From NCBI GenBank assembly GCA_934045075.1, contig OW203749.1:2585304-2649303 (forward strand): a stretch of 64,000 bases of DNA. The letters run 5' to 3'. Position 1 is the stretch's first letter. Each line of letters opens with the position of its first letter. A program made the translations under genes and the position numbers. Of this stretch, positions 3,740 through 48,540 are shown one piece after another. The notes under the pieces are model-generated. The model saw only the letters and a list, made by a program, of their open reading frames with translations. It was not told the DNA's origin and searched no databases. The stretch comes from Yponomeuta sedellus (lineage: Eukaryota; Arthropoda; Insecta; Lepidoptera; Yponomeutidae).

Positions 3740-4690
3740 TTTATCATCACGCGTACCCACCGCGCACTGGCAATTTTCCGGCAGTTGGGATTCCTATATG
3801 AGTGCCCATCTCACGCGAGTTTCCGGCAGTTGGGGCGTGCTTATTCCCATAAAAGAACCCACCTCACGCGAGTTGCGGGCAGCAAGGGCGGGTGCGCCTC
3901 TCATTCTTATTTGAGTACCCACCTCACGCGAGTTTCCGGCCGTTGGCGCGGATGCGCTGCTAATTCCTATGAGTACACACCTCACGCGAGTTTCCGGCAT
4001 CCGGGCCTACCTATTCCCATGAAAGAACCCACCTCACTCGAGTTTCCGGCATTCGAGGCGGGTGCGCTTTTCATTCCTATATAAGTTCCCACCTCACGCG
4101 AATTTCCGGCGGTTAGTGCTCATTCCTATTTGAGACCCACCTCACGCGAGTTTCGGGCAGTTGGAGCGTGCTTATTCCCATAAGAGAACCCACCTCACGC
4201 GAGTTTCCGGAATTGGAGGCGGGTGTGCTGCTCATTCCTACATGAGTACCCACCTTACGTAAGTTTCCGGCAGCTGGGGCGTGCTTAATCCCCACCTCCC
4301 GCGAGTTTCCGGCAGTTGGGCAGGTGCGCTGCTCATTACTATATTAGAACCCAACTCACGCGAGTTTCGGGCAGTTGGGGCGAGCTTATTCCCATAAAAG
4401 AACCCACCTCACGCGAGTTTCCGGCATTCGAGGCGGGTGCGCTGCTCATTCCTATATGAGTACCCCCGCCTCACGCGAGTTTCCGGAAGTTGGAGCGTGC
4501 TTATTCCTATATGAGAACACACCTCACCCGAGTTTCCAGCATTAGGGGCGGGTGCGCCGCTCATTCCTACATAAGTACCCACCTTACGCAAGTTTCCGGC
4601 CGTCGCAGCAGGTGCGCTACTCAATCCTATATGAGAACCTACCTCACGCGAGTTTCCGGCAGTTGGGGCAGGTGCGCTGCTCATTCAGCC
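3740..4690 (-). repeat. Tandem array of the 3' edge of the gene 1 RING exon (about 16 units of 50-60 bp)
   Basis: About sixteen imperfect units, each with the plus-strand core CCTCACGCGAGTTTCCGG. Spacing is 60 bp for one form and about 48-53 bp for a second that carries CGTGCTTATTCCCAT. On the minus strand each unit reads as the end of exon 3: codons for NEQR-CxxC-RKLA-stop followed by 18 bp of downstream sequence. The first unit (about 4627-4686) is the exon end itself. Units diverge from one another by substitutions and small deletions. Open frames across the array come from the 60-bp (20-codon) period and are not independent genes. Confidence 0.85.
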
Positions 4691-4809
4691 AGGGCCGGAC
4701 GCAGGCGGCGTGGAAGCTGTGCGCGCACGGCAGCTCCTCCAACTCCTGGTCCTTCAGCATCACCTCGCAGCATATGGAGCACTCCTCCAGCGACCACGAG
4801 CGCTGACGG
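4644..4809 (-). CDS. Gene 1, exon 3 (terminal): C-terminal RING-H2 finger of a membrane E3 ubiquitin ligase
   Basis: Last coding exon of a three-exon gene on the minus strand. It runs from a 3' splice site CCTATCCCCAG at 4810-4820 to a TGA at 4644-4646 and encodes 54 residues. It reads RQRSWSLEECSICCEVM near its start and contains all eight ligands of a C3H2C3 RING: CSIC, CAHSFHAAC, and CPNC close to the end, with the conserved P-W-L between. RING-H2 fingers recruit a ubiquitin-loaded E2, so the product is inferred to be an E3 ligase; DZIP3/TTC3-type RINGs are the nearest pattern I know. The exon begins in phase 2, matching the end of exon 2. Its 3' edge (RKLA plus stop) is repeated in the tandem array downstream, and its acceptor is repeated in the array upstream. 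The stop falls directly after the last zinc ligands, so the protein ends with the finger. Confidence 0.82.
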
Positions 4810-6471
4810 CTGGGGATAGGACCCGCGTGAGACTTCTACCCAGCTGTGGGCACCATTTACGACTGGGGAGAGGACCCGCCTGAGACATCTGCCCAGCTGT
4901 GGGTACCATTTACGGCTGGGGAGAGGACCCGCGTGAGACTTCTGCCCAGCTGTGGGCACCATTTACGGCTCGGGAGAGGACCCGCGTGAGACTCCTGCCC
5001 AGCTGTGGGCCCCATTTACGGCTGGGGAGAGGGCCGGCGTGAGACTTCTGCCCAGCTGTGGGCACCATTTACGGCTAGGTAGAGGACCCGCGTGAGACTT
5101 CTGCCCAGCTGTGGGCACCATTTACGGCTGGGGAGAGGATCCGCGTGAGACTTCTGCCCAGCTGTGGGCACCACTTGCGGCTGGGGAGAGGACCCGCGTG
5201 ATACATCCGCCCAGCTGTGGGCACCATTTACGTCTGGGGAGAGGACCCGCCTGAGACTTCTGCCCAGCTGTGGGCACCATTTACGGCTGGGGAGAGGACC
5301 CGCCTGAGACTTCTGTCCAGCTGTGGGCACCATTTACAGCTGGGGAGAGGACCCGCGTGAGACTTCTGCCCAGCTGTGGGCACCATTTACGGCTGGGGAG
5401 AGGACCCGCGTGAGACTTCTGCCCAGCTGTGGGCACCATTTACGGCTGGGGAGAGGACCCGCGTGAGACTTCTGCCCAGCTGTGGGCACCATTTACGGCT
5501 GGGGAGAGGACCCGCGTGAGACTTCTGCCCAGCTGTGGGCACCATTTACGGCTAGGGAGAGGACCCGCGTGAGACTTCTGCCCAGCTGTGGGCACCATTT
5601 ACGGCTGGGGAGAGGACCCGCGTGAGACTACTGCCCAGCTGTGGGCACCATTTACGGCTGGGGAGAGGACCCGCGTGAGACTTCTGCCTAGCTGCTGGCA
5701 CCATTTACGGCTGGGGAGAGGACCCGTGTGAGACTTCTGGCCAGCTGTGGGCACCATTTACGGCTGGGGTGAGGACCCGCGTGAGACTTCTGCCCAGCTG
5801 TGGGCACCATTTACGGCTGGGGAGAGGACCCGCCTGAGACTCCTGCCCAGCTGTGGGCCCCATTTACGGCTGGGGAGAGGGCCGGCGTGAGACTTCTGCC
5901 CAGCTGTGGGCACCATTTACGGCTAGGGAGAGGACCCGCGTGAGACTTCTGCCCAGCTGCTGGCACCATTTACGGCTGGGGAGAGGCCATTTACGGCTGG
6001 GGAGAGGACCCGCCTGAGACTTCTGCCCAGCTGTGGGCACGATTTACGGCTGGGGAGAGGACCCGCGTGAGACTTCTGCCCAGCTGTGGGCACCATTTAA
6101 GGCTGGGGAGAGGACCCGCGTGAGACTTCTGCCCAGCTGTGGGCACCATTTACGGCTGGGGAGAGGACCCGCGTGAGACTTCTGCCCAGCTGTGGGCACC
6201 ATTTACGGCTGGGGAGAGGACCCGCGTGAGACTTCTGCCCAGCTGTGGGCACCATTTACGGCTGGGGAGAGGACCCGCGTGAGACTTCTGCCCAGCTGTG
6301 GGCACCATTTACGGCTGGGGAGAGGACCCGCGTGAGACTACTGCCCAGCTGTGGGCACCATTTACGGCTGGGGAGAGGACCCGCGTGAGACTACTACCCA
6401 GCTGTGGGCACCATTTACGGCTGGGGAGAGGACCCGCGTGAGACTTCTGCCCAGCTGTGGGCACCATTTCA
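4810..6471 (-). repeat. Tandem array of a 53-bp unit carrying the gene 1 intron 2 splice acceptor (about 31 copies)
   Basis: About thirty-one near-identical copies of a 53-bp unit, whose plus-strand core is GGCTGGGGAGAGGACCCGCG followed by TGAGACTTCTGCCCAGCTG. On the minus strand every unit contains a pyrimidine tract and AG (TCCTCTCCCCAG) followed by CCGT, the same sequence that forms the intron 2/exon 3 boundary at 4809/4810. The array therefore lies at the end of intron 2 and places roughly thirty copies of the acceptor upstream of the real one. Partial units occur near 5980-5995. Identity between neighbouring units is high, so expansion looks recent. Confidence 0.9.
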
Positions 6472-6534
6472 TGGAACTACAGCGCTGTAGGGCGGAGCCC
6501 TGTAATAGCTACGGCTACTGCGACGACCTCTGTG

Positions 6535-6715
6535 ATGTAGCGGTAGCGCATCTGCCTACCATGCAAGAGGTCCCGGGTTCGAATCCCGGCTGGGGACAAA
6601 AAAAAACCTCAGGTCTTGGATGTTTACATGTTCGTGATGTCGCTGTTTCTGGTTCCCGCAACACAGGGTGTGGGGCCAGAAGCAATGTATGTGTCTGTAT
6701 GTAAATGTTATTTTA
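6535..6715 (+). mobile_element. tRNA-derived SINE (family Y)
   Basis: tRNA-like head with A-box region GTAGCGGTAGCGC and B box GGTTCGAATCCC, then an A run and the body ending GGGGCCAGAAGCAATGTATG. Other copies: 6965-7105, 47140-47300 and 48675-48855, all antisense. The head resembles an insect tRNA-Gly, but the lack of a paired acceptor stem and the constant 3' body mark a SINE. Confidence 0.7.
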
Positions 6716-6719
6716 TATT

Positions 6720-6960
6720 AGAGGCTAAAAATTTCACCCATGCGAGGACTCGAACCCGCGACCTCTGGCTAACCGTGCTAGCGCTCTCCCAACTGAGCTA
6801 ATAGGCAAGTACCGGCATCAGTAAAATATCGAACCTCTTTACAATATTCTCTGTATTATTTACAGGCAGCGACATCTGGCTGAAGTAATTTGCATCACTT
6901 GCAGCCCCGAGATTCCGATGTAAAACCTCGTTTTACTCGCCTCGCCTGTAAATAATACAG
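6720..6960 (-). mobile_element. tRNA-derived SINE (family X)
   Basis: Antisense copy: TTAGAGGCTAAAAATTTCAC, then tRNA-like GAACCCGCGACCTCTGGCTA and the body with GCAGCGACATCTGGCTGAAG. Confidence 0.65.
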
Positions 6961-6964
6961 AGAT

Positions 6965-7105
6965 ACACTGTGTCGTGGGAACCAGAAACAACGACATCAC
7001 AAACATGTAAGACCTGGGGTTGTTTTTGTTCCCAGCCGGGATTCGAACCCGGGACCTCTTGCATGGTAGGTAGATGCGCTACCGCTACGCCACAGAGGTC
7101 GTCAA
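6965..7105 (-). mobile_element. tRNA-derived SINE (family Y)
   Basis: Antisense copy with CCGGGATTCGAACCCGGGAC and TGCGCTACCGCTACGCCACA. Inverted relative to the copy at 6535-6715, so the pair could fold. Confidence 0.7.
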
Positions 7106-7499
7106 TAGGTTTTTAAAATTGGAAAGTTCACGCAATTAACTTCTTAAAGGACCCCACCTCTGGGCAACCCTTCGATGGAACCGGGCAAGGACGCCACAAA
7201 CATGTAAAAACATAAAAACACGCGCACTCCTCAGACCATTCATGCAAATTGTTAATGACCCTTCATCATCAGTCCCTGTCATGGCTTATTTATAATCTTA
7301 CCAGCTGTGCCCCGCTGTGTATACTATAGTTTATACATTTTACCATGGGAATAAGATACGCCGGGTTTTCACGGTCTTGTTGCGCTCGGACCGAGTTTAC
7401 TAAGATGACTACTAAGATGCTACTCTGATCGTGTGGTCAGAAAGAGTGTCAGAAAGAGATAATTAGCAGTTTAATTTACGAAGGTGAAGAAGTATTGTG

Positions 7500-8245
7500 G
7501 AATGTGCGTTTGGCATCATATAAAAATAAAGACTCAAATTGTTCGCTTGTTAACCGCAAAAGGTTCTTAAACTTGGCTGTTTCTTCCATTTTATAATTCT
7601 CGAAGAATATATTCGAAATTTCGAAGCACCTAAAGGTCAATGAGACGATATAAAGAATGTAAACAAAGTTTCAGGGGTTCAAAACATTTTTATTTGAATA
7701 AATTATAGTTATACAAATTTCGGATTCCCTGTTCTAATCGCTGTCGCCTGTATTAGTCAAACATGATTCACCGGAAGAGTACGAATCAACCCTATTTATG
7801 ACAAAATTATCCGTAGCATTATCAATCATGTTATCAATATGGCTATAAAAATTGTCCTCGTATCACATCGAACGCAATCTAAACAGGAATGAACTATTAT
7901 AGTTCACAAAATGGCGGATAACACCAAATGTTGACAACTGCCGTACTGAAAGTTTTCCTGTACCACGAAATACGCAACGACAGGTGTCGTCGATCAAATG
8001 ACGCCATTACCGCATACGTGTGACAAGGACAGAGATAATAATCGCTCACTATCGCAATGTAACTCAGTAACGGTCCTTTTGTTTACATTCTTTATCTCGT
8101 CTCATTGGCCTTCCTTTAGTCTGTCACGGATTAAAATCCATTTACGTGTCCAGATTTTTCTTCTTTTTTCATCCTGCTGCTGTTGCAGCTCGACGATAAC
8201 CATATCTGCCATCACTTCTATGCCTTTCAGCAGTAAATCGGTCAT
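7500..8245 (-). pseudogene. Broken N-terminal part of a Harbinger-type transposase
   Basis: From ATG 8245-8243 the frame reads MTDLLLKGIEVMAD and then KRRKIWTRKWILIRDRLKEG, stopping at 8102 just inside an inserted MITE. Beyond the MITE (below 7635) the same orientation continues with a frame containing MEETAKFKNLLRLTSEQFES. The basic WxRxWIxxRxxLG and xNLLRLTxExFExL patterns are typical of PIF/Harbinger transposase N-termini (family knowledge). The gene is disrupted by the insertion and a frame change and lacks DDE residues. Confidence 0.55.
7635..8110. mobile_element. MITE nested in the Harbinger remnant
   Basis: Inverted ends of about 33 bp: left GGTCAATGAGACGATATAAA then GAATGTAAAC; right (inverted) GGCCAATGAGACGAGATAAA then GAATGTAAAC. 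No coding capacity. It splits the transposase remnant between RDRLKE and the following segment. Confidence 0.65.
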
Positions 8246-8554
8246 TTCAAAGCCACTGCAAAGCTGGTTCAAAGTTTTTCAAGTTTTCACAGAGTTTTGC
8301 TTTTATAACAGTAGACGCTGACCAGACAACAAAGCGCGTTCAAAAATGAATAAAAATCCATATCCACTAAAATGTGTGTAGACTAGTATCCGAGTTGCTG
8401 TTTTAGTTGACTAAGAAGACACGCTCGGTCCGAGTCCACTAAGACCGTGAAAACGCGGCTATATTTTACCTCAATAAAACTTAGCCTAAATTATTATGTT
8501 AATCCAGGGTGTCAGCTAACTCCATACCAAATTATACTATTTTTATTTTTAATG

Positions 8555-8935
8555 CACTAACCCGTGCTAAGGACAAATTTAAAAACCTATTTAGAGGCTA
8601 AAAATTTAAGCCTCTAAATAGGTTTTTAAATTTGTCCTTAGCACGGGTTAGTGCATTAAAAATAAAAATAGTATAATCATGTGCGTACAGTGATATCGTT
8701 CCGATGTAAAAACCTAACTGCAAAGTAGGTAGTCGGGGCTGTAAGTGATGCAATTTGCTTAAGCCAGATGTCGCTGCCTGTACGTAATACAGAGAATAGT
8801 ATAAAGAGGTTCGAAATTTCACTGATGCCCATTGGCTGAATTGGTAGAGCGCTGGCACGGATAGCCAGAGGTTGCGGGTTCGAATCCCGGCATGGGTGAA
8901 ATTTTTAGCCTCTAAATAGGTTTTTAAATCCATAC
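8555..8935 (+). mobile_element. tRNA-derived SINE (family X) with inverted leader
   Basis: A perfect hairpin at about 8555-8660 (CACTAACCCGTGCTAAGGAC on both strands, centre near AAAAATTTAAGCC) precedes a sense copy whose tRNA-like head is at 8826-8899 (GGTTGCGGGTTCGAATCCCG) and which ends TTTTTAGCCTCTAAATAGGT. Among the best-preserved copies in the window. Confidence 0.65.
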
Positions 8936-9049
8936 CAAATGTTATTAAAAACGCTCCAGCCGTTTAGACGTGAATAAGTAACAAACATTGGCTATGATGG
9001 CATAAACATAAGATATAGAATGTGGCGGTCATTTTTGTAGGACTATTTA

Positions 9050-9390
9050 AGACTAGCTATTGCCCGCGACTCCGTCCGCGTGGACTTTAGTTTTTGCAAT
9101 CCCTTTCACTCCCTTAAGGGTTAAATATTAAAAAAAACGCCGAAACACGTGTTCAATCAGTTGTGTTGAAGAGTATTTATTTTAAGTTTCAAGAAAATTA
9201 TATTATACCTCCCATACAAATTTTGGCAACCCTTTTGGGGCTTAGAGGTAGAATTTAAAAAAATCCGGTCTTATTCCTCGCCTACATTATTTACTGTGCA
9301 AAATTTCAGCTTCCTAGGTCCAACGGCTTGGGCTAGGCGTTGATGAGTGCGTCAGTCAGTCAAGACTTTGAATTTTATTTATATAGATTT
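9050..9390 (+). mobile_element. Non-LTR retrotransposon 3' tail remnant
   Basis: Begins near CTAGCTATTGCCCGCGACTC and runs through a sequence resembling the untranslated tail of insect LINEs (AAATTTCAGCTTCCTAGGTC, then GCGTCAGTCAGTCAAGACTT). No reverse transcriptase coding remains. Confidence 0.45.
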
Positions 9391-9687
9391 AAGAGTGTTA
9401 TTCTTAATAAGATTGTAGATGTATAGGATGCCAAACCTACGTCTAAAAAAACCAACACAAGTAATATGTTAACTAATGAATGCATTGTACACTTCTTATA
9501 TTATTTCAAGCAAATAACTTGAAAATCACCCGCAAACACCTCACATGCAAGTGGCCGATCAGACCAAACGAATGCTCTTACAAATTCTGTTGTCTTGGAT
9601 TTCCAATGTATTCTAATTCGGCTGTTTCATTCCTGTAAGACGAAGATTGGATTCCATTGAGTAAATCAGAAATAAGTATGGCTAAGA

Positions 9688-10130
9688 CAGGGCAGGATCT
9701 ACCTAAGGGCTGCTTGGGCTGCAGCCCAGGGCCCCGAGGTTACAAGGGGCCCCCAGATTCCGCTAAACACAGTAGGCGATAATTTTAATTTAACCTGTCA
9801 ATTTCTTTTACTAATTCATAATAAATAAATGAAACTATTTTATTGTTTTTTTTTTATATAATAATATGTATATATATCACCATTTTGATTTCTCTCTCAC
9901 CCAAAAGTTGCCTGGAAGAGATTGCTACCACAAAAATAAGGTCGCCTTTTGTACTACTACTTGAGTAGATTTAATGAATATTTCTGTTTTTTTGTGCAAT
10001 AAAGAATATTTAATAATAATAATAATAATGATTATAGAAACAATTTTTTGACATGGCTATTAGTTGAGTACCTAGATAGGCCCCTAAGTAGTTTCAGCCC
10101 AGGGCCCCACAAACTCAAGATCCGCCCATG
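9688..10130. mobile_element. hAT-type MITE with 8-bp target duplication
   Basis: The 443-bp element starts CAGGGCAGGATCTACC and ends (inverted) CATGGGCGGATCTTGAG, with further inverted similarity around GGGCCCTGGGCTG. It is flanked on both sides by GGCTAAGA (9680-9687 and 10131-10138). An 8-bp duplication with CA...TG ends is the hAT signature. The interior is AT-rich and non-coding. Confidence 0.8.
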
Positions 10131-10269
10131 GGCTAAGACCATGAGGCCTTAACCTATGGTGATAAAAATTATTCAGAATCTTCTAAAACAGCGTAGAAAT
10201 CTTACCCTAAAGTCCCTTAGCCACTCCTAATGAGATGAGTCTTTCCGATGTATGTCCTCCCTAATCGTT

Positions 10270-10620
10270 ATCAACCCTTGTATGTCCCCATTGCTGGGGC
10301 ACGGGTCTCTTCCTGCACCGCAGGAAGGTTAGGCCATACTCCACCACGGGGGCCAAGTCCGGGTTGGTGGAAGATTGTAAGACAGTGGCGGGCCTTACCG
10401 TGAAGCCGCCAATAAGGCCTCTGACATGGCTTAACGACTGCCATTACATGACAGCCGGCACCAACGGCTTAACGTGCCTTGCGAAGCGCGGAAGCGCTCG
10501 GAAAAAATGCCACTAGCGGTAGTCACGGAACGGTCTGCGTCTGACCGCGCCTGTGGTTGCTTAACTCAAGCGATTGATTCCAATCACTCGGTTCGGCTAG
10601 GCCACGAGCGCTTCAAGAAG
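10270..10620 (-). mobile_element. 5S-rRNA-derived SINE, near full length
   Basis: Antisense copy. The 3' end is at 10270 (CAACCCTTGTATGTCCCC) and the head at about 10485-10620. The head includes the inverse of GAGTTAAGCAACAACAGGCG-type sequence, here partly deleted. Both ends of the head carry the inverted pair GAAGCGCTCG / CGAGCGCTTC. Confidence 0.8.
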
Positions 10621-11412
10621 GGTCATGAAGAATTTTTTATGGAACAGAAAGCACATCGCGGCGCTGTCTGATTGGGAGCCACTTAAGCCTAGAGCGATAT
10701 TCATAGCGATGGCATTAGACGTTAGCCTACTAACTCCTAGTGATAAAAAAATTACAAAATCTTCTAAAACAGCGTAGAAGTGTTATCCTAAAGTCCCTTA
10801 GCCACTCCTAATGAGAAGACTCTTTACTATGTATGCCCCTATTCATTACATATAGTTTTCATATGTATGGTAAATTATATGGTTTCCCTTGCTTCTTAAG
10901 CCCGCAGTACACAGTGGCCCATGCTGGCCCACTGCTCGCCATTGCCAATTGTAGGCCACGATCACTTGCTGTTCCCACAATGGCGCGTGGCTCATTTCTG
11001 TCTGGCAAACCACTTGCGATGGACGTGGAAGTAGTTGCGGCCACAGCTATTTATTTATTTACTATTTATTTATTTCATTTATTTACAAGTTAGTATTACA
11101 GAAGTTATTTAAAACAAAGTTTACAACAAAGTTATTTAAAAAAAAATGGCGCAAAATTACGGGCACAGATTGATATAAATAAGAAAAACTTGAATTTCAA
11201 TTGACTGAACGATGGGCCACTGTGTAATCAGGGATGATGGATTTGAAGTGTGCCCAAAAAACCGACAACTGTCCGATTGCGCGCGATAGGCAATTGTCCG
11301 CCACTGCACACCATTACCCCGAGTACACAGTGGCAATGGCGAGCAGTGGGCCATCATGGGCCACTGTGTACTGCGGGCTTTATGAGTGTACATATTGTAT
11401 TTTGTAGTGATA

Positions 11413-12276
11413 TATACAGGGCGTCGCAAAGTTATGGGCCATGAAGGGAAGGTACCTTAAATATTGTAGATAGGGTATTCTTCTGAAAGAAGACTTTATG
11501 TTATTTTTAAAAGTTAGTAATTCTGCATTCAAAGATTTCCTAAAAATACTTGACTTGTCTGGGAATCGAACAGACTTTAAATTAAAAGAAAAACACCCCT
11601 ACTTTTATGATGCCAATCGAAATAATGGCCAAAAACTAATAACTCTTCTTAAGTAACATAGTATTTTAAAAGAAAGGAACACCGTGAAATTAATCATTTT
11701 AATCAAATTAAAAACAAACATGAAACTGCCGCAGTCAATTAAGTTGAAAATGAAAAATGAAAATCAACAGACAGCGGACTCATTAAAAGATTGGCGATTT
11801 GCGTAACACAAGAGGGATCACATTTTGAGCATTTAATTAATTAATTTACAAAAAAATACTCACTTAATTGACTACGGCAGTTTCATGTATGTTTTTAATT
11901 TGATTAAAATTATTAATTTCACGCTGTTCCTTTTTTTTAAATACTATGTTAATTAAGAAGATATGTTTTTAATTTGATTAAAATTATTAATTTCACGCTG
12001 TTCCTTTTTTTTTAAATACTATGTTAATTAAGAAGAGTTACTATTTTTTGGTCATTCTTTCGATTGGCATCATAAAAGTAGAAGTGTTTTTTTTTTTTAC
12101 ATTTAAGTGCGTTCGATTCCCAGACAAGGCAAGTAATTTTTAGAAAATCTTTGAATGCAGAATTACTAACTTTTAAAAATAACATAAAGTCTTCTTTCAG
12201 CAAAATAAATCCTATCTACGATATTTAAGGTACTTTCCCTTCATGGCCCATAACTTTGGGACGCCCTGTATAATTA
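11413..12276. mobile_element. Long-inverted-repeat mariner-type MITE
   Basis: Ends CAGGGCGTCGCAAAGTTATG and (inverted) CAGGGCGTCCCAAAGTTATG, flanked by TA on each side. The arms extend for roughly 350-400 bp each, so the element is almost wholly palindromic. The right arm has an internal duplication near 11905-12025. The TACAGGGYGTCCCAAAG-like end is typical of mariner-type elements. No transposase. Confidence 0.75.
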
Positions 12277-12344
12277 TGGGCTATGTCCAGCAGTGGACTA
12301 CATAATATAGCCTGAAGAAGAAGAATACATAATTATTTTAATAT

Positions 12345-12505
12345 AGATAGAAAACACTTTATTACATAAAAAAGGAAATTGCACAGACATTCCTTCAACT
12401 TAGGAGTACCTACAGATGGCGGCCTCATCACTAAAAGTGATCTCTTCCAGACAACCTTCGGATGGACTGGAGCAACATATTGGAGAAGGAAGTAGATGTA
12501 CAAAT
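12345..12505 (+). repeat. Dispersed repeat of the GGCGGCC family
   Basis: Contains a relative of ACAATTGGCGGCCTTAT...TTCCAGACAACCTT. Related copies lie at 14446, 47495, 53640 (inverted), 57358 and 60560. The shared AAGAATATTCTTTATTGTAC segment suggests a LINE or SINE 3' region, not identified further. Confidence 0.5.
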
Positions 12506-12834
12506 AAATAAAAATATTTCAGATACATTTGAATAACATAATGTATAGTGTATTATAATATGTGTAAGTCTAAGTATATATATATATATATTAATTAATG
12601 GGTAAGTTTATTTAATTACACCACATAACTATACCGTTTTTCTTTTTTTTTTGCACGCCTACCAACTTTTTCGTCTACCTCCTGCGGTTGAATGGTAGAA
12701 AGTGCTTATGTCATTAAGTTTGCCGCATTGTACGGTTTTAGTGTTAAAACTTAAGTGGAATAAAAGTATTAATAACAATTTTGTATAAAAAAAATGTACG
12801 ATAAGTAATGAATAAACATATTTTATACTATTTT

Positions 12835-13012
12835 TATTTTTAATGCACTAACTCGTGCTAAGGACAATTTAAAAACCTATTTAGAGGCTAAAAATTCCAC
12901 CCATGCCCATTAGCTTAGTTGGAAAGAGCGCTGGCACGGGTAGCCAGAGGTCGCGAATTCGAATCCCGGCATGGGTGGAATTTTTAGCCTCTAAATAGGT
13001 TTTTAAAAATAT
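12835..13012 (+). mobile_element. tRNA-derived SINE (family X)
   Basis: tRNA-like head at 12902-12977 (GCTTAGTTGGAAAGAGCGCT; AATTCGAATCCCGGCATGGG) and the family tail TTTTTAGCCTCTAAATAGGT. Confidence 0.65.
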
Positions 13013-13059
13013 TTTACCTAGAACAGAAAGTTTTCTAGACACTTAAGGTCCAAGGGGTA

Positions 13060-13160
13060 AAAATTGAGTAAAAATTTACGTTTATTAAACTGAAATTTAC
13101 ATATATTAAATTTACGTTTATTAAACTAAAGTAAAAATTTACGTTTATTAAACTGTAAAT
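13060..13160 (+). repeat. Short direct repeats of TTTACGTTTATTAAACT
   Basis: Three copies of AAATTTACGTTTATTAAACT-like sequence within 100 bp, AT-rich, non-coding. Confidence 0.6.
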
Positions 13161-13314
13161 CAGAAATAATATTTCTTAATGATTCGCGGTAGGTACTAAT
13201 ACATAGTTATATAATAAACGGGTCAAATCGCGATTATTTATTAGATAAAACGTCTACCCGTGACCACGCAACCGCAACGCTGCCGAAACATCGCGAATTA
13301 AGGTAATTACGTTT

Positions 13315-13415
13315 TACCAACCCGGACTTGGCCCCCGTGGTGAAGTATGGCCTAACCTTCCTGCCATGCAGGAAGAGACCCTGTATGAGTGGGGGCATAC
13401 AGGGTTGAAATCGAA
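13315..13415 (+). mobile_element. 5S-rRNA-derived SINE, 3' end fragment
   Basis: Contains CAACCCGGACTTGGCCCCCG and the tail with ATACAGGGTTGA. 5'-truncated. Confidence 0.65.
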
Positions 13416-13464
13416 TCGAATCGACGTTTTACCTAATAAATCATCGCGATTAGACCCCGTTTCT

Positions 13465-13760
13465 TCTTCAGGCTATATTAGTCCACTGCTGGACATAGCC
13501 CTCCCCTAATGAGCGCAAGGTTGTGCCATCATTGGGGGGTAATGCCCATAATCCCCACGCTGGGCATGCGGGTTGGGGATCGCAGTTTGGTAGAATTGTA
13601 CTGCAGGGGGCGCTGCTGCCCACCCCCCGGTTGGTGTCCCTTAGTCGCCTTTGCGACACCCGCGGGAAGAATTGGGTTGGTGCTATTCTCTAGGCCGACG
13701 CCACACAGAAACGACTTCATCAAAGAGTATTCTCAATTTCTCTTTGATAAGTTAATTAAA
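13465..13760 (-). mobile_element. RTE-like LINE 3' end fragment
   Basis: Minus-oriented tail sharing TCCACTGCTGGACATAGCCC and TCCCCTAATGAGCGC with the LINE at 51704-52330, followed by a GC-rich segment. No conserved reverse transcriptase motif here. The same tail in plus orientation ends near 12284-12330. Confidence 0.5.
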
Positions 13761-13957
13761 TTCCAATTCTAGGCACAATCAAAAGGATTAAACGATAACC
13801 AATCAAGAATTTGTGCCGTTAAAACGTATTATTGGCAAAGTTTCATTGCGACCAAGGTGTGGATTGTAAAACCTTAATCATTTTGAAGCAGTTGTACTAG
13901 CCCCACTTAGATAAGATAATTGTTTATTTGAACACAAATAAATTGAATTGGTTTACA

Positions 13958-14319
13958 GAAGCGTTCGTGGCCTAGTGCAACCGAGTGATTGGACTCAATC
14001 ACTCGAGATAAGTAACAGGCGCGGTCAGGTACTAGATGGGTGACCAACCTGTGACTACCGCTAGTGGCATTTTTCCGTGCGGTTCCGTGCATCGCAAGGC
14101 TTGCAACGCCGTTGGTGCTGGCTGTCATATAATGGCAGTCGTTAAGCCAAGTCAGAGGCCTTAGGGCGGCTTGAAAACTTCTGACAGTGACACCAGCCAC
14201 TAGTCTTGCAAGACTCCACCAATCCGGACTTGGCCCCCGTGGTGGAGTATGGCCTATACCTTCCTCAGGAAAGAGACCCGTGCCCCGCGGTCGGGACATA
14301 ATGGGTTGATGATGATGAG
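13958..14319 (+). mobile_element. 5S-rRNA-derived SINE (GATGATGA tail form)
   Basis: Sense copy with head from 13960 (GAAGCGTTCGTGGCCTAG), a shortened 5S-like core (ACAGGCGCGGTCAGGTACTAG then ATGGGTGACC), the body and the tail GGTTGATGATGATGA. The body variant (AGTCTTGCAAGACTCCACCA, CCTTCCTCAGG) matches the second subfamily. Confidence 0.8.
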
Positions 14320-14445
14320 TATACCATGCCACCCCACAGGAAAGACAAGTCAATACGTGCGGAATTAACCGAGCTGCGGGTTTCCCCACAATTTTTCCTT
14401 AGTGATAGTAGGACTAATTCACAAAGTTAAGACCTCTCAGCATTA

Positions 14446-14640
14446 AGATAAGATAAGAATATTCTTTATTGTACACCAGGCAAAGACAAACATAAAATCA
14501 TTACATAGATACAGTACAATTGGCGGCCTTATAGCTCAGAGCAATTTCTTCCAGACAAGCTACGATGGAGAGTTGCTGAAGGAACAGTGTTTTATATAAA
14601 AGGGGAGTGAATGTTTATGAGAATGATTCCTTGAGGGAGC
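14446..14640 (+). repeat. Dispersed repeat of the GGCGGCC family
   Basis: GATAAGATAAGAATATTCTT, then ACAATTGGCGGCCTTATAGC, then TTCCAGACAAGCTACGATGG. Non-coding. Confidence 0.55.
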
Positions 14641-14705
14641 CTTAGTGCACTGTTTTGTTATAGAACAAGTATTTATTAATGATTCGCGATGCTCATACAC
14701 AGTTA

Positions 14706-15076
14706 TACAGGGCGTCCCAAAGTTATGGGCCATGAAGGGAAAGTACCTTAAATATACTACGGCAGTTTCATGTATGTTTTTAATTTCATTAAAATGATTA
14801 ATTTCACGCTGTTCCTTCCTTTTAAAATACTATATTACTTAAGAAGAGTTATTAGTTTTTAGCCATTATTTCGATTGGCATCATAAAAGTAGGGGTGTTT
14901 TTTTTTTTTAATTTAAGTCGGTTCGATTCCCAGACAAGGCAAGTAATTTTTAGAAAATCTTTGAAAGCAGAATTACTAACTTTAAAAAATAACATAAAGT
15001 CTTCTTTCAGCAAAATACCCTATCTACAATATTTAAGGTACTTTCCCTTCATGGCCCATAACTTTGGGACGCCCAT
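14706..15076. mobile_element. Shortened copy of the long-inverted-repeat mariner MITE
   Basis: Left end ACAGGGCGTCCCAAAGTTAT; right end ATAACTTTGGGACGCCC. The left arm is cut to about 55 bp while the right arm is nearly full, so it is a deletion derivative of the element at 11413-12276. Confidence 0.7.
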
Positions 15077-15366
15077 TGAACGGGTCTAAACGCGATTATT
15101 TATTAGGCCCGCTGCGAAAAACTTAAAGTAACTATCCACAATAATTGACTGTACTCGCCACTTCAGTCTACCCGTGACCACGGCAACTGCAACGTTGCTG
15201 AAACGTCGTGAATTAACGCAATTACGTTTTACCTAATAAACAATCGCCAATTAGACCCGTTTAATATGCAACTTTGTTATAGACCTGTTAATTCTACATA
15301 GATAAGATTAACACTTGATGTCGGTGTCCTACAAACAAGGTTCAGTTAAAAAAAAAATGCACTTAC

Positions 15367-17173: not shown

Positions 17174-17358
17174 AAAGCCTGCGGTTCTTCGCAAGCCCAA
17201 TTTGAAGATGTGGAGCCTTCGTTGTCAGGATTTTCCGGCCGTTTGTTGAAAAAGTAGTACAAGGCTGCCCCAACGCCTACGCCGATCGCAGCCGCCGCCA
17301 AGCCGAGCCCTCTACTCGGGCAGCTATTTTTCTGTCGTTCTTCCTCGCGAACACTCAT
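17174..17358 (-). CDS. Gene 1, exon 1: start and transmembrane segment
   Basis: First coding exon, 185 nt, starting at ATG 17358-17356 in the good context CCGCCATGAG and ending at donor TT|GTAAGTA. It encodes 61 residues: a charged start (MSVREEERQ), a Gly/Ala-rich hydrophobic stretch at about residues 17-37 (GLGLAAAAIGVGVGAALYYF), then basic NKRPENP and an acidic/Ser tail. The hydrophobic block with following positive charges looks like a signal-anchor for the ER or mitochondrial outer membrane, leaving the C-terminal RING in the cytosol (inference). Intron 1 (about 1.4 kb) holds a 5S-derived SINE. The 5' flank is interrupted 125 bp upstream of the ATG by a hAT element, so the promoter lies in or beyond that insertion, or in the short remaining segment 17359-17482. 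Confidence 0.72.
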
Positions 17359-20814: not shown

Positions 20815-21440
20815 TATTTTTGATGCACTAACCCGTGCTAAGGACAATTTTAAAAACCTATTTAGAGGCTAAAAATTCCACCTATGCCGGGATTCGAACC
20901 CGCGACCTCTGGCTATCCGTGCCAGCGCTCTATCCAACTGAGCCAATGGGCGACTCGCCGGCATCTATTCTCTGTATTACGTACAGGCAGCGACATCTGG
21001 CTGAAGTAGATTGCATCACTTACAGCCCCGACTACCTACTTTGCAGAGTGCTTAGTGCGAGTTTTTTAACTACTCGATCGCGTTAACGTTAACTCGTATT
21101 TCTATGGCATCGAGGAAGCGCGATCTAGCGACAAGTATGGAAATTAAAATTGCTGAGTGCGAGTTGTAATGGTTTACGTTGAGAAGTGAACACGTTTACC
21201 AGCCAAAACACGAATAAACGCGAGTGCGAGTTGTACTGTGACAGCGTTTTACCAGTTCTAACGGTTAACTTACTCATACTCACTACTCAATGCTAGACTA
21301 ACGCGGTAGTAAAGTAATTCGATTGGATCTGTCAAACTCGCACTAAGCACTCAGGTTTTACATCGGAATGATATCGCTGTACCCACATGATTATACTATT
21401 TTTATTTTTAATGCACTAACCCGTGCTAAGAATAGTATAA
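20815..21440 (-). mobile_element. tRNA-derived SINE (family X) composite inside the P element
   Basis: Starts ATGCACTAACCCGTGCTAAG, tRNA-like head at about 20885-20950 (antisense), body with GCAGCGACATCTGGCTGAAG, and ends with a second ATGCACTAACCCGTGCTAAG at 21411. Interrupted by the MITE at 21046-21353. Confidence 0.6.
21046..21353. mobile_element. MITE nested in the SINE composite
   Basis: Perfect 18-bp ends GAGTGCTTAGTGCGAGTT / AACTCGCACTAAGCACTC. The interior repeats GAGTGCGAGTTGTA-like motifs. The flanking SINE sequence (CTACTTTGCA ... GGTTTTACATCGG) is that of other copies with about four bases changed at the join; no clear target duplication. Confidence 0.7.
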
Positions 21441-34900: not shown

Positions 34901-35904
34901 GTCTGTAGCGTGGCTTGTTTGTAATTTCGGTCGTAGATATAGAAACTCCATTGATATTTCAATATTGATGGCAGTTTTTCGATGATTTCGCGAATAAGCG
35001 ATGTATTAGATAGATGGCCCGTCTCATTTGTCAAAGTCATTGCCGCGACTACGTTCTGTACTGACGTCGCGAACTCTATGAGTCCATTTATGTCGTCATG
35101 ACGTATACAATTTATAGCACGAATCTTTGCCAACATCGCTTCTATAAGATGGTCTTGTCTTCCAAATCTTAGTTTCAGCGTCGAAATAATCTTTTCTAAG
35201 CCGGTCGCGCTCACAAGAAGCGCCGATACAGAGTCACGGGCCTTGCCTTTTAGGCACTTCATTAGCCGGGCGATGTTTTCCTCCTCACTATAGTTACACA
35301 GTCGAGTCGTAGTTTTGAACTGACTATAGAAAATCGGCCATTCTGTGACATCGCCAGCAAACGGAGGAAGCTCTTTGACCGACTGTCTTGCCAAGAGCTT
35401 GTTCAGCGTGCGCTCGATGGGAGGCGACTTGGCGTCTTGTCGCATTTCTTCTCTAATTAGCTTCACTCTGAGTTCGAGTCGTTCCGCTTCTCGTTCGAGC
35501 TCTGCTACGCGTCTCTCCGCGTTCTCCCCCGCGGTCGGCTGTCGCTGTCGGCGACTTGCAGAAGAAGAGGCGACGGAGGCGCGTGACAGGGCGGGCGACG
35601 GCGCGCGTGTCGTGCGCGTCGATCGCAGCGGGGATGGGCTCCTGCTCAGAGCGGAGTGCATGCGCGACGGTGCGCGACTACTGCGTGCGGAGCGCGGTGA
35701 GGGCGCGCGACTGGTGCGCGTTGAGCGCGGCGAGGGCGCGCGACTGTTGCGTGTTGAGCGCGGTGAGGGCGCGCGACTGCCGCACGCTGAGAGTGGTGAG
35801 GGGGCGCGGCTACTGGGTCCGGGCCGCGCCCGGCCGATCGGGTTGTCGTTTCCCTGGCTGGACGAGTCGGGCGCAGCCAGTTTTTTACGATTTCGCGTTT
35901 CCAT
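31894..35904 (-). CDS. BEL/Pao gag-protease-RT-RNase H polyprotein (second element)
   Basis: Open frame of 1336 codons, ATG at 35904, about 30 bp inside the 5' LTR. Residues about 25-110 hold repeated SRAPSPRS-type units, unlike the coiled coil of the first element. Then DUF1759 gag (FAGDVTEWPIFYSQFKTT), zinc knuckles (CFSCLSPGHQISQC), protease (VLALLDEGATISLIDEDLA), RT (KTWFLPHFAVFNPNKPNKLR; YVDD in HYVDDYIHSI), RNase H (FHIFCDASSRAFSAVVYL; VAPLKTLSIPRLELQ). The frame ends near 31894 by a shift before integrase. It encodes the proteins of a retrotransposon that acts in cytoplasmic particles. Confidence 0.9.
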   Translation of the reverse strand: METRNRKKLAAPDSSSQGNDNPIGRARPGPSSRAPSPLSACGSRAPSPRSTRNSRAPSPRSTRTSRAPSPRSARSSRAPSRMHSALSRSPSPLRSTRTTRAPSPALSRASVASSSASRRQRQPTAGENAERRVAELEREAERLELRVKLIREEMRQDAKSPPIERTLNKLLARQSVKELPPFAGDVTEWPIFYSQFKTTTRLCNYSEEENIARLMKCLKGKARDSVSALLVSATGLEKIISTLKLRFGRQDHLIEAMLAKIRAINCIRHDDINGLIEFATSVQNVVAAMTLTNETGHLSNTSLIREIIEKLPSILKYQWSFYIYDRNYKQATLQTLSDWLIKTANAATHIAPVQIASAEQRPQSRWTTRKHAVLAVNKPANNKSAHSKPATHLCAMCQRSHALEDCQDFLRLTIDARWEYVTDKKLCFSCLSPGHQISQCKSKRKCKHCDRPHHLELHAEPKPSAKPEPEPSEADAIITHTNSKRTSQVLLKVARVVVSGPRQSEEVLALLDEGATISLIDEDLARRIGVSGATSDLRIQGVSGMQSTANASQRVSFNIRGKKSEETFNISNVHTVHNLALPMYRHNLGRLSCNNELIKRFINDLGTTDDIDERPLLLLGTDNIDLIVTRQLYTGHKSRDSLYVSFTLLGHIVHGKTPNTVPTDVSVLHLCACDELNDAVRRSFSTDGFGTRPYSDMPRSKEDLRAIDILEKTSKLVGDRWETGLLWKDDLPNLPDSYGMARKRLDGIKRKFDKMPDLAARYSAKIHENLEKGYISKIDDKDTAVRTGKTWFLPHFAVFNPNKPNKLRIVLDCAAKSHGKSLNDHLLSGPDFLTSLPGVLIAFRNRKVAVVGDIEEMFHRVVITEEDRQAQRLLWIDGEYIMNVMNFGAICSPASAQYVKNLNARRFTNSHPKAVDAIVNHHYVDDYIHSIDDAEEAVKTVNDVVRIHAAGGFNMRNFMSNSKELLRSLPEERLAPGGMKFLSDCKEKQLERVLGLNWEPESDNFVFTMKFHKIDKTLQSGAKRPTKRETLRLIMSVFDPLGFLLTTTIKGRLILQDVWRDSIGWDDEIGSGHYDKWKGWLNELEQARCTRIHRWMMSDDCIKDGKVEFHIFCDASSRAFSAVVYLRSPLMDGSWHLAFVIARGRVAPLKTLSIPRLELQAAVMGARLSQGLREYVDASSAKMTFWTDSKTVIAWIKSETGRFKPFVAHRISEIAELTDPRDWRWVPTDLNPADDATRNVTASDRLRWLNGPDFLKQSEELWPRPETEAAVDPNDVEVKVVCQLTSHEKLALPDIYRFSSYWRYVRSVAWLLRYKNSRAEVSLFHRKLNLPKPCVP

Positions 35905-43671: not shown

Positions 43672-43860
43672 AAACCTATTTAGAGGCTAAAAATTCCATC
43701 CATCCCGGGACTCGAACCCGCAACCTCTGGCTAACCGTGCCAGCGCTCTCCCAACTGAGCTAATGGGCGGGTAGCCGGCATTAGTGAAATTTCGAACCTC
43801 TTTACTCTCTGTATTACGTACAGGCAGCAACATCTGAAGTAATTTGCATCACTTGTATTG
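43672..43860 (-). mobile_element. tRNA-derived SINE (family X)
   Basis: Antisense copy: AACCTATTTAGAGGCTAAAA, tRNA-like GACTCGAACCCGCAACCTCT, body with GTACAGGCAGCAACATCTG. Confidence 0.65.
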
Positions 43861-48009: not shown

Positions 48010-48540
48010 TTAAAGCCCTATTTAGAGGCTAAAAATTCCATGCATTAAGCTTCTGGCCCCACACTAGGATACCCTGTGTCGTTGGAATTCCTAACGTTTT
48101 ACAACTTCAGCCAGATGTCGCTGCCTGTACGTAATACAGAGAGTATTTAAAAACCTATTTAGAGGCTAAAAATTTCACCCATGCCGGGATTCGAACCCGC
48201 AACCTCTGGCTATCCGTGCCAGCGCTCTACCAATTAAGCCAATGGGCGACTCACGGCATCAGTGAAATTTCGAACCTCTTTACAATATTCTCTGTATTAC
48301 GTACAGGCAGCGACATCTGACTTAAGCAAATCGCATTACTTACCTACTTTGCAGTTAGGTTTAACATCGGAACGATATCACTGTACCCACATGATAAAAG
48401 AGGTTCGAAATTTCACTGATGCCGTGAGTCGCCCATTGGCTCAATTGGTAGAGCGCTGGCACGGACAGCCAGAGGTTGCGGGTTCGAATCCCGGCATGGG
48501 TGGAATTTTTAGCCTCTAAATAGGTTTTTAAAACTTCCAA
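48010..48540. mobile_element. Two tRNA-derived SINEs (family X) in inverted orientation
   Basis: Antisense copy with tRNA-like head at about 48180-48250, then a sense copy with head at about 48430-48505. The outer tails (TTTAGAGGCTAAAAAT / inverse) and heads can pair, giving a long hairpin. A short piece of family Y (CTTCTGGCCCCACACTAGGA) is embedded at 48049-48090. The whole lies in intron 3 of gene 2. Confidence 0.6.

Follow-up and report, generated by a model that had tools for sequence, protein, structure and literature searches.

Repeats that lie on splice borders are already known, and the two-sided, high-copy form around a catalytic exon described here is a variant of them. Two described cases come from the human CBS gene: going by the titles, a paper by Lievers of 2001 is said to treat the effect of the CBS 31-bp VNTR on activity, and one by Romano of 2002 reportedly deals with a 3′ splice site for CBS 844ins68. 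In the extract of PMC2630376, the VNTR is written as c.1444_1467+7(16_21), a notation by which the 31-bp repeat spans an exon–intron border, and it has 16–21 units differing by single substitutions; the same extract describes 844ins68 as a 68-bp duplication of an intron 7/exon 8 junction, with a strong preference for the more distal site, and calls the competing site a “donor”. Variable repeats at exon–intron boundaries can alter splicing in human segmental-duplication genes (extract of PMC2812944), a tandem duplication that spans an intron/exon structure carries along the branch site, the pyrimidine tract, and the acceptor and is a route to new introns (extract of PMC4974935), and CeRep25B is an intronic minisatellite of C. 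elegans that is over-represented near alternative splicing regions (extract of PMC4039745). An earlier sequence-only reading of the present DNA had held that no described locus has this design, which is too strong given the CBS VNTR and 844ins68 as the PMC2630376 extract presents them. Among the open-licence papers listed, no title points to a locus in which a single exon has an array on either side.

The locus is a three-exon gene on the minus strand of the window (the whole 64-kb stretch of DNA that was analyzed), and its third exon, which encodes a RING domain, has a tandem array at either edge. The features are given below, with a slash marking the exon border in splice-site motifs.

17358-17174, minus strand: exon 1, coding from the ATG at 17358, with donor GCTTT/GTAAGT, in the spliced frame
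15780-15367, minus strand: exon 2, acidic and serine-rich, with donor TT/GTAAGT, in the spliced frame
15366-6470, minus strand: array-free part of intron 2, AT-rich with 39% GC
6469-4806, minus strand: upstream array, a 53-bp unit in 31 copies plus one 21-bp remnant
4858-4806, minus strand: upstream unit 31, carrying the real acceptor, i.e., the real intron end
4809-4644, minus strand: exon 3, 166 nt, RING-H2 with eight zinc ligands, stop TGA at 4646-4644
4696-3805, minus strand: downstream array in its alignment layout, 16 copies including the real exon end
4643-4627, minus strand: post-stop flank within the downstream unit, 17 nt, with donor-like GAG/GTAGGT (GT at 4642-4641)
3539 and 3494 (3539-3489), minus strand: two AATAAA matches to the poly(A) signal, the first ones beyond the downstream array
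47898-47727, minus strand: paralogous RING-H2 exon of matching phase (1 nt, then CGC CAG), 59% GC, with AT-rich flanks

Predicted splicing of the window sequence yields a 254-codon open frame with fitting exon phases, and full-length homologs in named lepidopterans span all three exons at 34–49% identity (for P0001, 47% across 100% of the spliced protein used as query), which together support the gene model. Exon 1 encodes the conserved N-terminus (tblastn with P0006, 85% identity, E 4e-31) and, by eye, looks like it encodes a membrane segment. Exon 3 holds an intact RING-H2 domain (Pfam zf-RING_2, E 9.9e-14, above the cut-off) with the eight-ligand pattern CxxC..CxHxxHxxC..CxxC, and its nearest solved structures in the PDB are those of ZNRF3, RLIM, RNF126, and others. 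Of 50 homologs, none of them identical, 42 carry the eight-ligand motif and 34 the exon 2/3 junction residues F-R-E/Q/T-R; 47 are named, and by their genera we take all 47 to be moths or butterflies. The best protein match is from Heliothis virescens, and Eumeta japonica is another of the relatives. By family, the gene is a lepidopteran RLIM-like RING-H2 E3 ligase with putative ligase activity, and it resembles such genes in the gene as a whole, in its C-terminal RING, and in the exon 2/3 junction residues. With the RING exon alone as query, no candidate sharing three words was found among proteins of similar length. A tblastn search of intron 2 (6470-15366) for the small extra exons of relatives, with all 50 homologs as queries and the best match kept per 200-base bin, gave no convincing match. 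Because the exon 2 donor reads TTG TAA, retention of intron 2 would lead to an immediate stop. Judged by eye, the annotated homologs P0046, from Colias eurytheme, and P0048, from Brenthis ino, seemingly translate the RING exon in another frame, perhaps through a shifted acceptor or an annotation error, and in P0035 exon 1 appears to be joined straight to the RING exon, with exon 2 skipped.

The upstream array bears out the proposal of about 31 copies of a 53-bp acceptor unit before the exon: there are 31 units, the acceptor AG is kept in 31/31, and unit 9 is separated from unit 10 by a remnant of 21 bp (5992-5972) that lacks 32 bp through an internal deletion. The acceptor positions run from 6420 to 4862 for the spare copies, and the true acceptor is at 4809. 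Each unit follows the order AAATGG...CTCAC...TCCTCTCCCCAG/CCGT, with a branch-like CTCAC, a pyrimidine tract, a CAG acceptor, and the four exon bases CCGT; these first four bases of exon 3 are the only part of the exon in the unit. The array is recovered by Tandem Repeats Finder in two pieces (scores 2082 and 924). Differences from the consensus amount to 46 in 1643 positions and increase exon-ward (Spearman 0.38, p 0.036), with a mean pairwise difference among units of 5.4%. Units 11 and 12 share variants with units 27 and 28, two each, and so this array probably also grew in blocks. The suggestion that the upstream copies are decoy acceptors fits to the extent that every copy is acceptor-like in sequence. 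Nothing in the pattern of changes points to selection on these spare acceptors, as the AGs were changed in 0/62 cells vs ~1.7 expected (from 46/1643) and the ten pyrimidine-tract positions had 9 changes vs ~8.7 expected. Candidate recursive splicing within the units (CC/GTAAAT) was dropped, since no donor there scored above 0 with a weight matrix that is rough.

Downstream, about 16 copies of a 50–60-bp unit had been proposed; the count of 16, which includes the exon end, stands, and the spacing is corrected to 42–62 bp, with two subtypes of ~60 and ~53 bp (Tandem Repeats Finder scores up to 624; copy 1 enters the alignment with 59 nt). The unit consists of the last 43 nt of exon 3 and 17 bp of flank and starts, by eye, at ~4686, so that arrays starting exactly at the exon edges, as had been claimed, describes this side only loosely: the unit begins 43 nt inside exon 3 and ends 17 nt past the stop. 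A degenerate 17th piece is visible by eye near 3785-3750, and the mean pairwise difference among copies is 21.6%. Serial alternative ends, the function once suggested for this array, are not supported: translation would halt at the first TGA, and the copies behind it could supply further protein ends only through splicing into them. The downstream AGs are also poor acceptors, with 0/55 AGs in 3740-4690 scoring at or above the true acceptor and 1/55 at or above the exon 2 acceptor by a rough matrix.

Newly noticed here is a match to a 5′ splice donor directly behind the stop, a good match although a predicted donor only. Its GT, and likewise AGGT, is kept in 13/16 downstream copies; beside the GAG/GTAGGT at the end of exon 3, the other 12 GT-keeping copies comprise 6 with GAG/GTGGGT and 6 variants by one or two bases. 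By a rough matrix, GAG/GTAGGT scores 5.67, vs 0.68 for the exon 1 donor and 2.35 for the exon 2 donor, and beyond the locus a donor score of this height turns up at a rate of ~0.15 per kb of strand. Given this match and its retention, what the downstream array repeats may be donors and not ends. Stop and donor lie in a 21-nt stretch that has changed less than the remainder of the unit (20/336 cells changed vs 93/554 elsewhere); the stretch was chosen after viewing the alignment and takes third place among 60 circular windows. Within subtypes the contrast shrinks to 18/294 vs 64/489 (p 0.0017) and reaches significance in one subtype of the two; this comparison used 14/16 copies, since copies 1 and 11 were unassigned. 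As a lead, this better-kept stretch could hint at function.

Compared with the CBS VNTR as the PMC2630376 extract describes it, the locus is alike in that a tandem array lies over an exon–intron border, here with the acceptor AG in every upstream unit and the predicted donor GT in most downstream copies. It differs in that the VNTR occupies one border, on the donor side, whereas here both borders are repeated and the upstream acceptors come as 53 bp x 31. Similarly, 844ins68 in that extract sets two competing junction sites against each other through a single duplication, in contrast to an array of 31. The repeats of human segmental-duplication genes, in their extract, lie in duplicated paralogs and are transcript-supported, whereas the present arrays are known from sequence alone. 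Intron gain through tandem duplication of AGGT, again as extracted, has the AGGT of the downstream copies as a shared feature, but here the downstream acceptors are poor. Finally, CeRep25B is a dispersed 24-base family in its extract, whereas the arrays here are made from the exon’s own borders.

The two units are the exon’s own borders, are unrelated to each other, and have diverged to different degrees (upstream ~5%, downstream ~22%), and the gene frame is intact. Hence the borders were apparently amplified independently on each side, as the sequence-only reading had proposed. The longest run shared by the two consensuses is at most 8 bases (CTCACGCG, inverted), a length reached by 197/2000 shuffled pairs and thus within chance, and a common origin of the two arrays was rejected on this ground. 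For two unrelated arrays to end at the edges of one exon by chance has a probability of ~4e-6 even allowing 40 tries, as computed from a uniform null that is crude. GC content is 66% in exon 3, 64% in the upstream array, and 55% in the downstream array, vs 39% in the intron and 41.5% in the window, and slippage in GC-rich edges amid AT-rich surroundings is a plausible origin. Overall, the locus is probably best read as two independent tandem-duplication minisatellites at the edges of a GC-rich RING exon, mostly neutral and tolerated.

When a segment that crosses an exon edge is duplicated, one exon is still complete, which is why the edges would tolerate duplication and the middle cannot. The arrays could thus persist while each edge-crossing duplication leaves exon 3 complete, with growth outward on either side. 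Exon 2 would be joined mainly to the exon-proximal 31st acceptor, and the other 30 would be removed with the intron; use of the exon-adjacent copy has a precedent in the two-copy CBS case, where the distal site is favored (extract of PMC2630376). The downstream array would either belong to the 3′ UTR or form the first part of an intron that follows the stop codon. More tentatively, a small fraction of transcripts might use other copies and give RING-less protein. If the reading as tolerated minisatellites is right, GC-rich exon edges amid AT-rich DNA may be sites where genes tolerate tandem duplication.

Compatible with this neutral reading, and plausible though not what we expect, is that the RING exon is not the last one, so that the donor behind the stop is used, a 3′ UTR intron follows, and the downstream array is a true array of 5′ splice sites. 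The donor’s score above those of both other exons of the gene, and the rarity of such scores in the background, as ranked by a rough matrix, point this way. So does P0035, a single cluster whose protein extends 47 residues beyond RKVAE, an extension that might come from a donor overlapping the stop. The two AATAAA just past the downstream array are instead as one would have for a terminal exon, and 40/42 RING-bearing homologs end 4–6 residues past the last cysteine, which counts against this reading but is silent on a 3′ UTR intron.

A functional reading would make the arrays a splice dial, in which spare acceptors compete, copy number sets the ratio of RING-bearing to RING-less and perhaps dominant-negative protein, and the donor array modulates exon recognition. 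We regard this as unlikely. The predicted products do give it something to act on: splicing to the spare upstream acceptors keeps the RING in 0/30 cases, with a predicted RING-less tail of 37 residues in 22/30 and of 25 to 90 residues in the remainder, and in 20/30 the tail ends at the repeat’s TAA (CCG-TAA). This stop sits in the same enlarged exon, and if that exon is the last, junction-dependent decay would not be expected. Among relatives, the motif is absent in 8/50 homologs, so RING-less products are annotated in the family, although some may be annotation errors; of these eight, P0041 and P0044 appear, by eye, to end at the exon border, and P0046 and P0048 are the two with the RING exon seemingly in another frame. 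Retention of the donor GT in 13/16 downstream copies would also suit a dial, whereas the acceptor signals of the upstream array show no excess conservation.

Whether the 31st copy is marked out by its own sequence bears on the same question. The acceptor and donor weight matrices rank sites only roughly, as is apparent from the exon 2 acceptor, which scores only -2.13, below the true exon 3 acceptor. By this matrix, 26/30 spare upstream acceptors score at or above the true one (0.39), the only weaker ones being copies 13, 26, 28, and 30, and the acceptor itself hence does not explain the choice. In intron 2 outside the array, 40/458 AGs also score at or above the true acceptor by the same rough matrix, so it is not strong by itself. 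In predicted folds at four pairing spans, copy 31 has one of the more open pyrimidine tracts (rank 2, 2, 2, and 3 of 31), and a consensus unit in place of copy 31 lowers openness from 0.41 to 0.27 and from 0.38 to 0.27 at two spans, as the dial reading would have it. Against this, the AG of copy 31 is at no span more open than the mean of the other 30, its branch region ranks erratically (6, 1, 16, and 30 of 31 across the four spans), and single-unit hairpins are ordinary relative to shuffles (z -0.79, 0.33, and 0.70), although two perfect units folded together reach z -2.61. Hairpins that hide all acceptors but the last were rejected as an explanation on the same ordinary AG, scattered branch ranks, and ordinary single-unit folds. 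The predicted tract openness of copy 31 is thus a lead only.

The strongest form of the dial reading is that an exon bearing ~30 copies of its 3′ splice site on one side and more than 12 of its 5′ splice site on the other constitutes a heritable, copy-number-tunable dial of RING vs RING-less E3 ligase. This we consider very improbable, while tuning by copy number as such is possible. Choice among near-identical acceptors is usually studied with engineered duplications of few copies. Here, 31 natural acceptors stand in series before a conserved catalytic exon and every wrong choice would delete the RING, so that the locus could be a natural test of splice-site choice among near-identical copies.

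Tandem arrays are often misassembled, and copy numbers that were collapsed, inflated, or wrongly joined would make the locus partly an assembly artefact. We give this little credence: many copies carry their own substitutions, the remnant lacks 32 bp, signatures of block duplication are present, the gene frame is intact, and a wrong copy count would leave the border structure in place. Equally improbable is a chance landing here of fragments from a genome-wide satellite or transposon as the source of one unit or both, for which eight tRNA-like stretches in the window, one of them ~55 bp from the upstream array, could be adduced. Against it, the units extend into coding sequence of the exon itself, the rest of the 64-kb window contains no 14-mer from either consensus, and none of 26 candidate proteins matches the array translation at E <= 1. 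Viral contigs gave no match to a 21-base array pattern, in a search from which records of the window’s own genome were possibly left out.

The tRNA-like stretches lie at 2748-2824, 6525-6598, 7031-7097, 8826-8899, 20877-20953, 43696-43769, 48174-48249, and 48429-48504. ARAGORN assigns a type to seven of them, of which five are Ser (GGA), and they are probably tRNA-derived short interspersed elements.

Beside the paralogous RING exon at 47898-47727, no comparable array was found on either side, which indicates that the arrays are not a fixed feature of the RING domain. A 22-bp repeat of 2.7 copies lies ~75 bp behind this exon. Elsewhere in the window, a GC-rich tandem repeat at 35664-35822 has a 33-bp unit, a multiple of three, in ~4.4 copies and is possibly coding.
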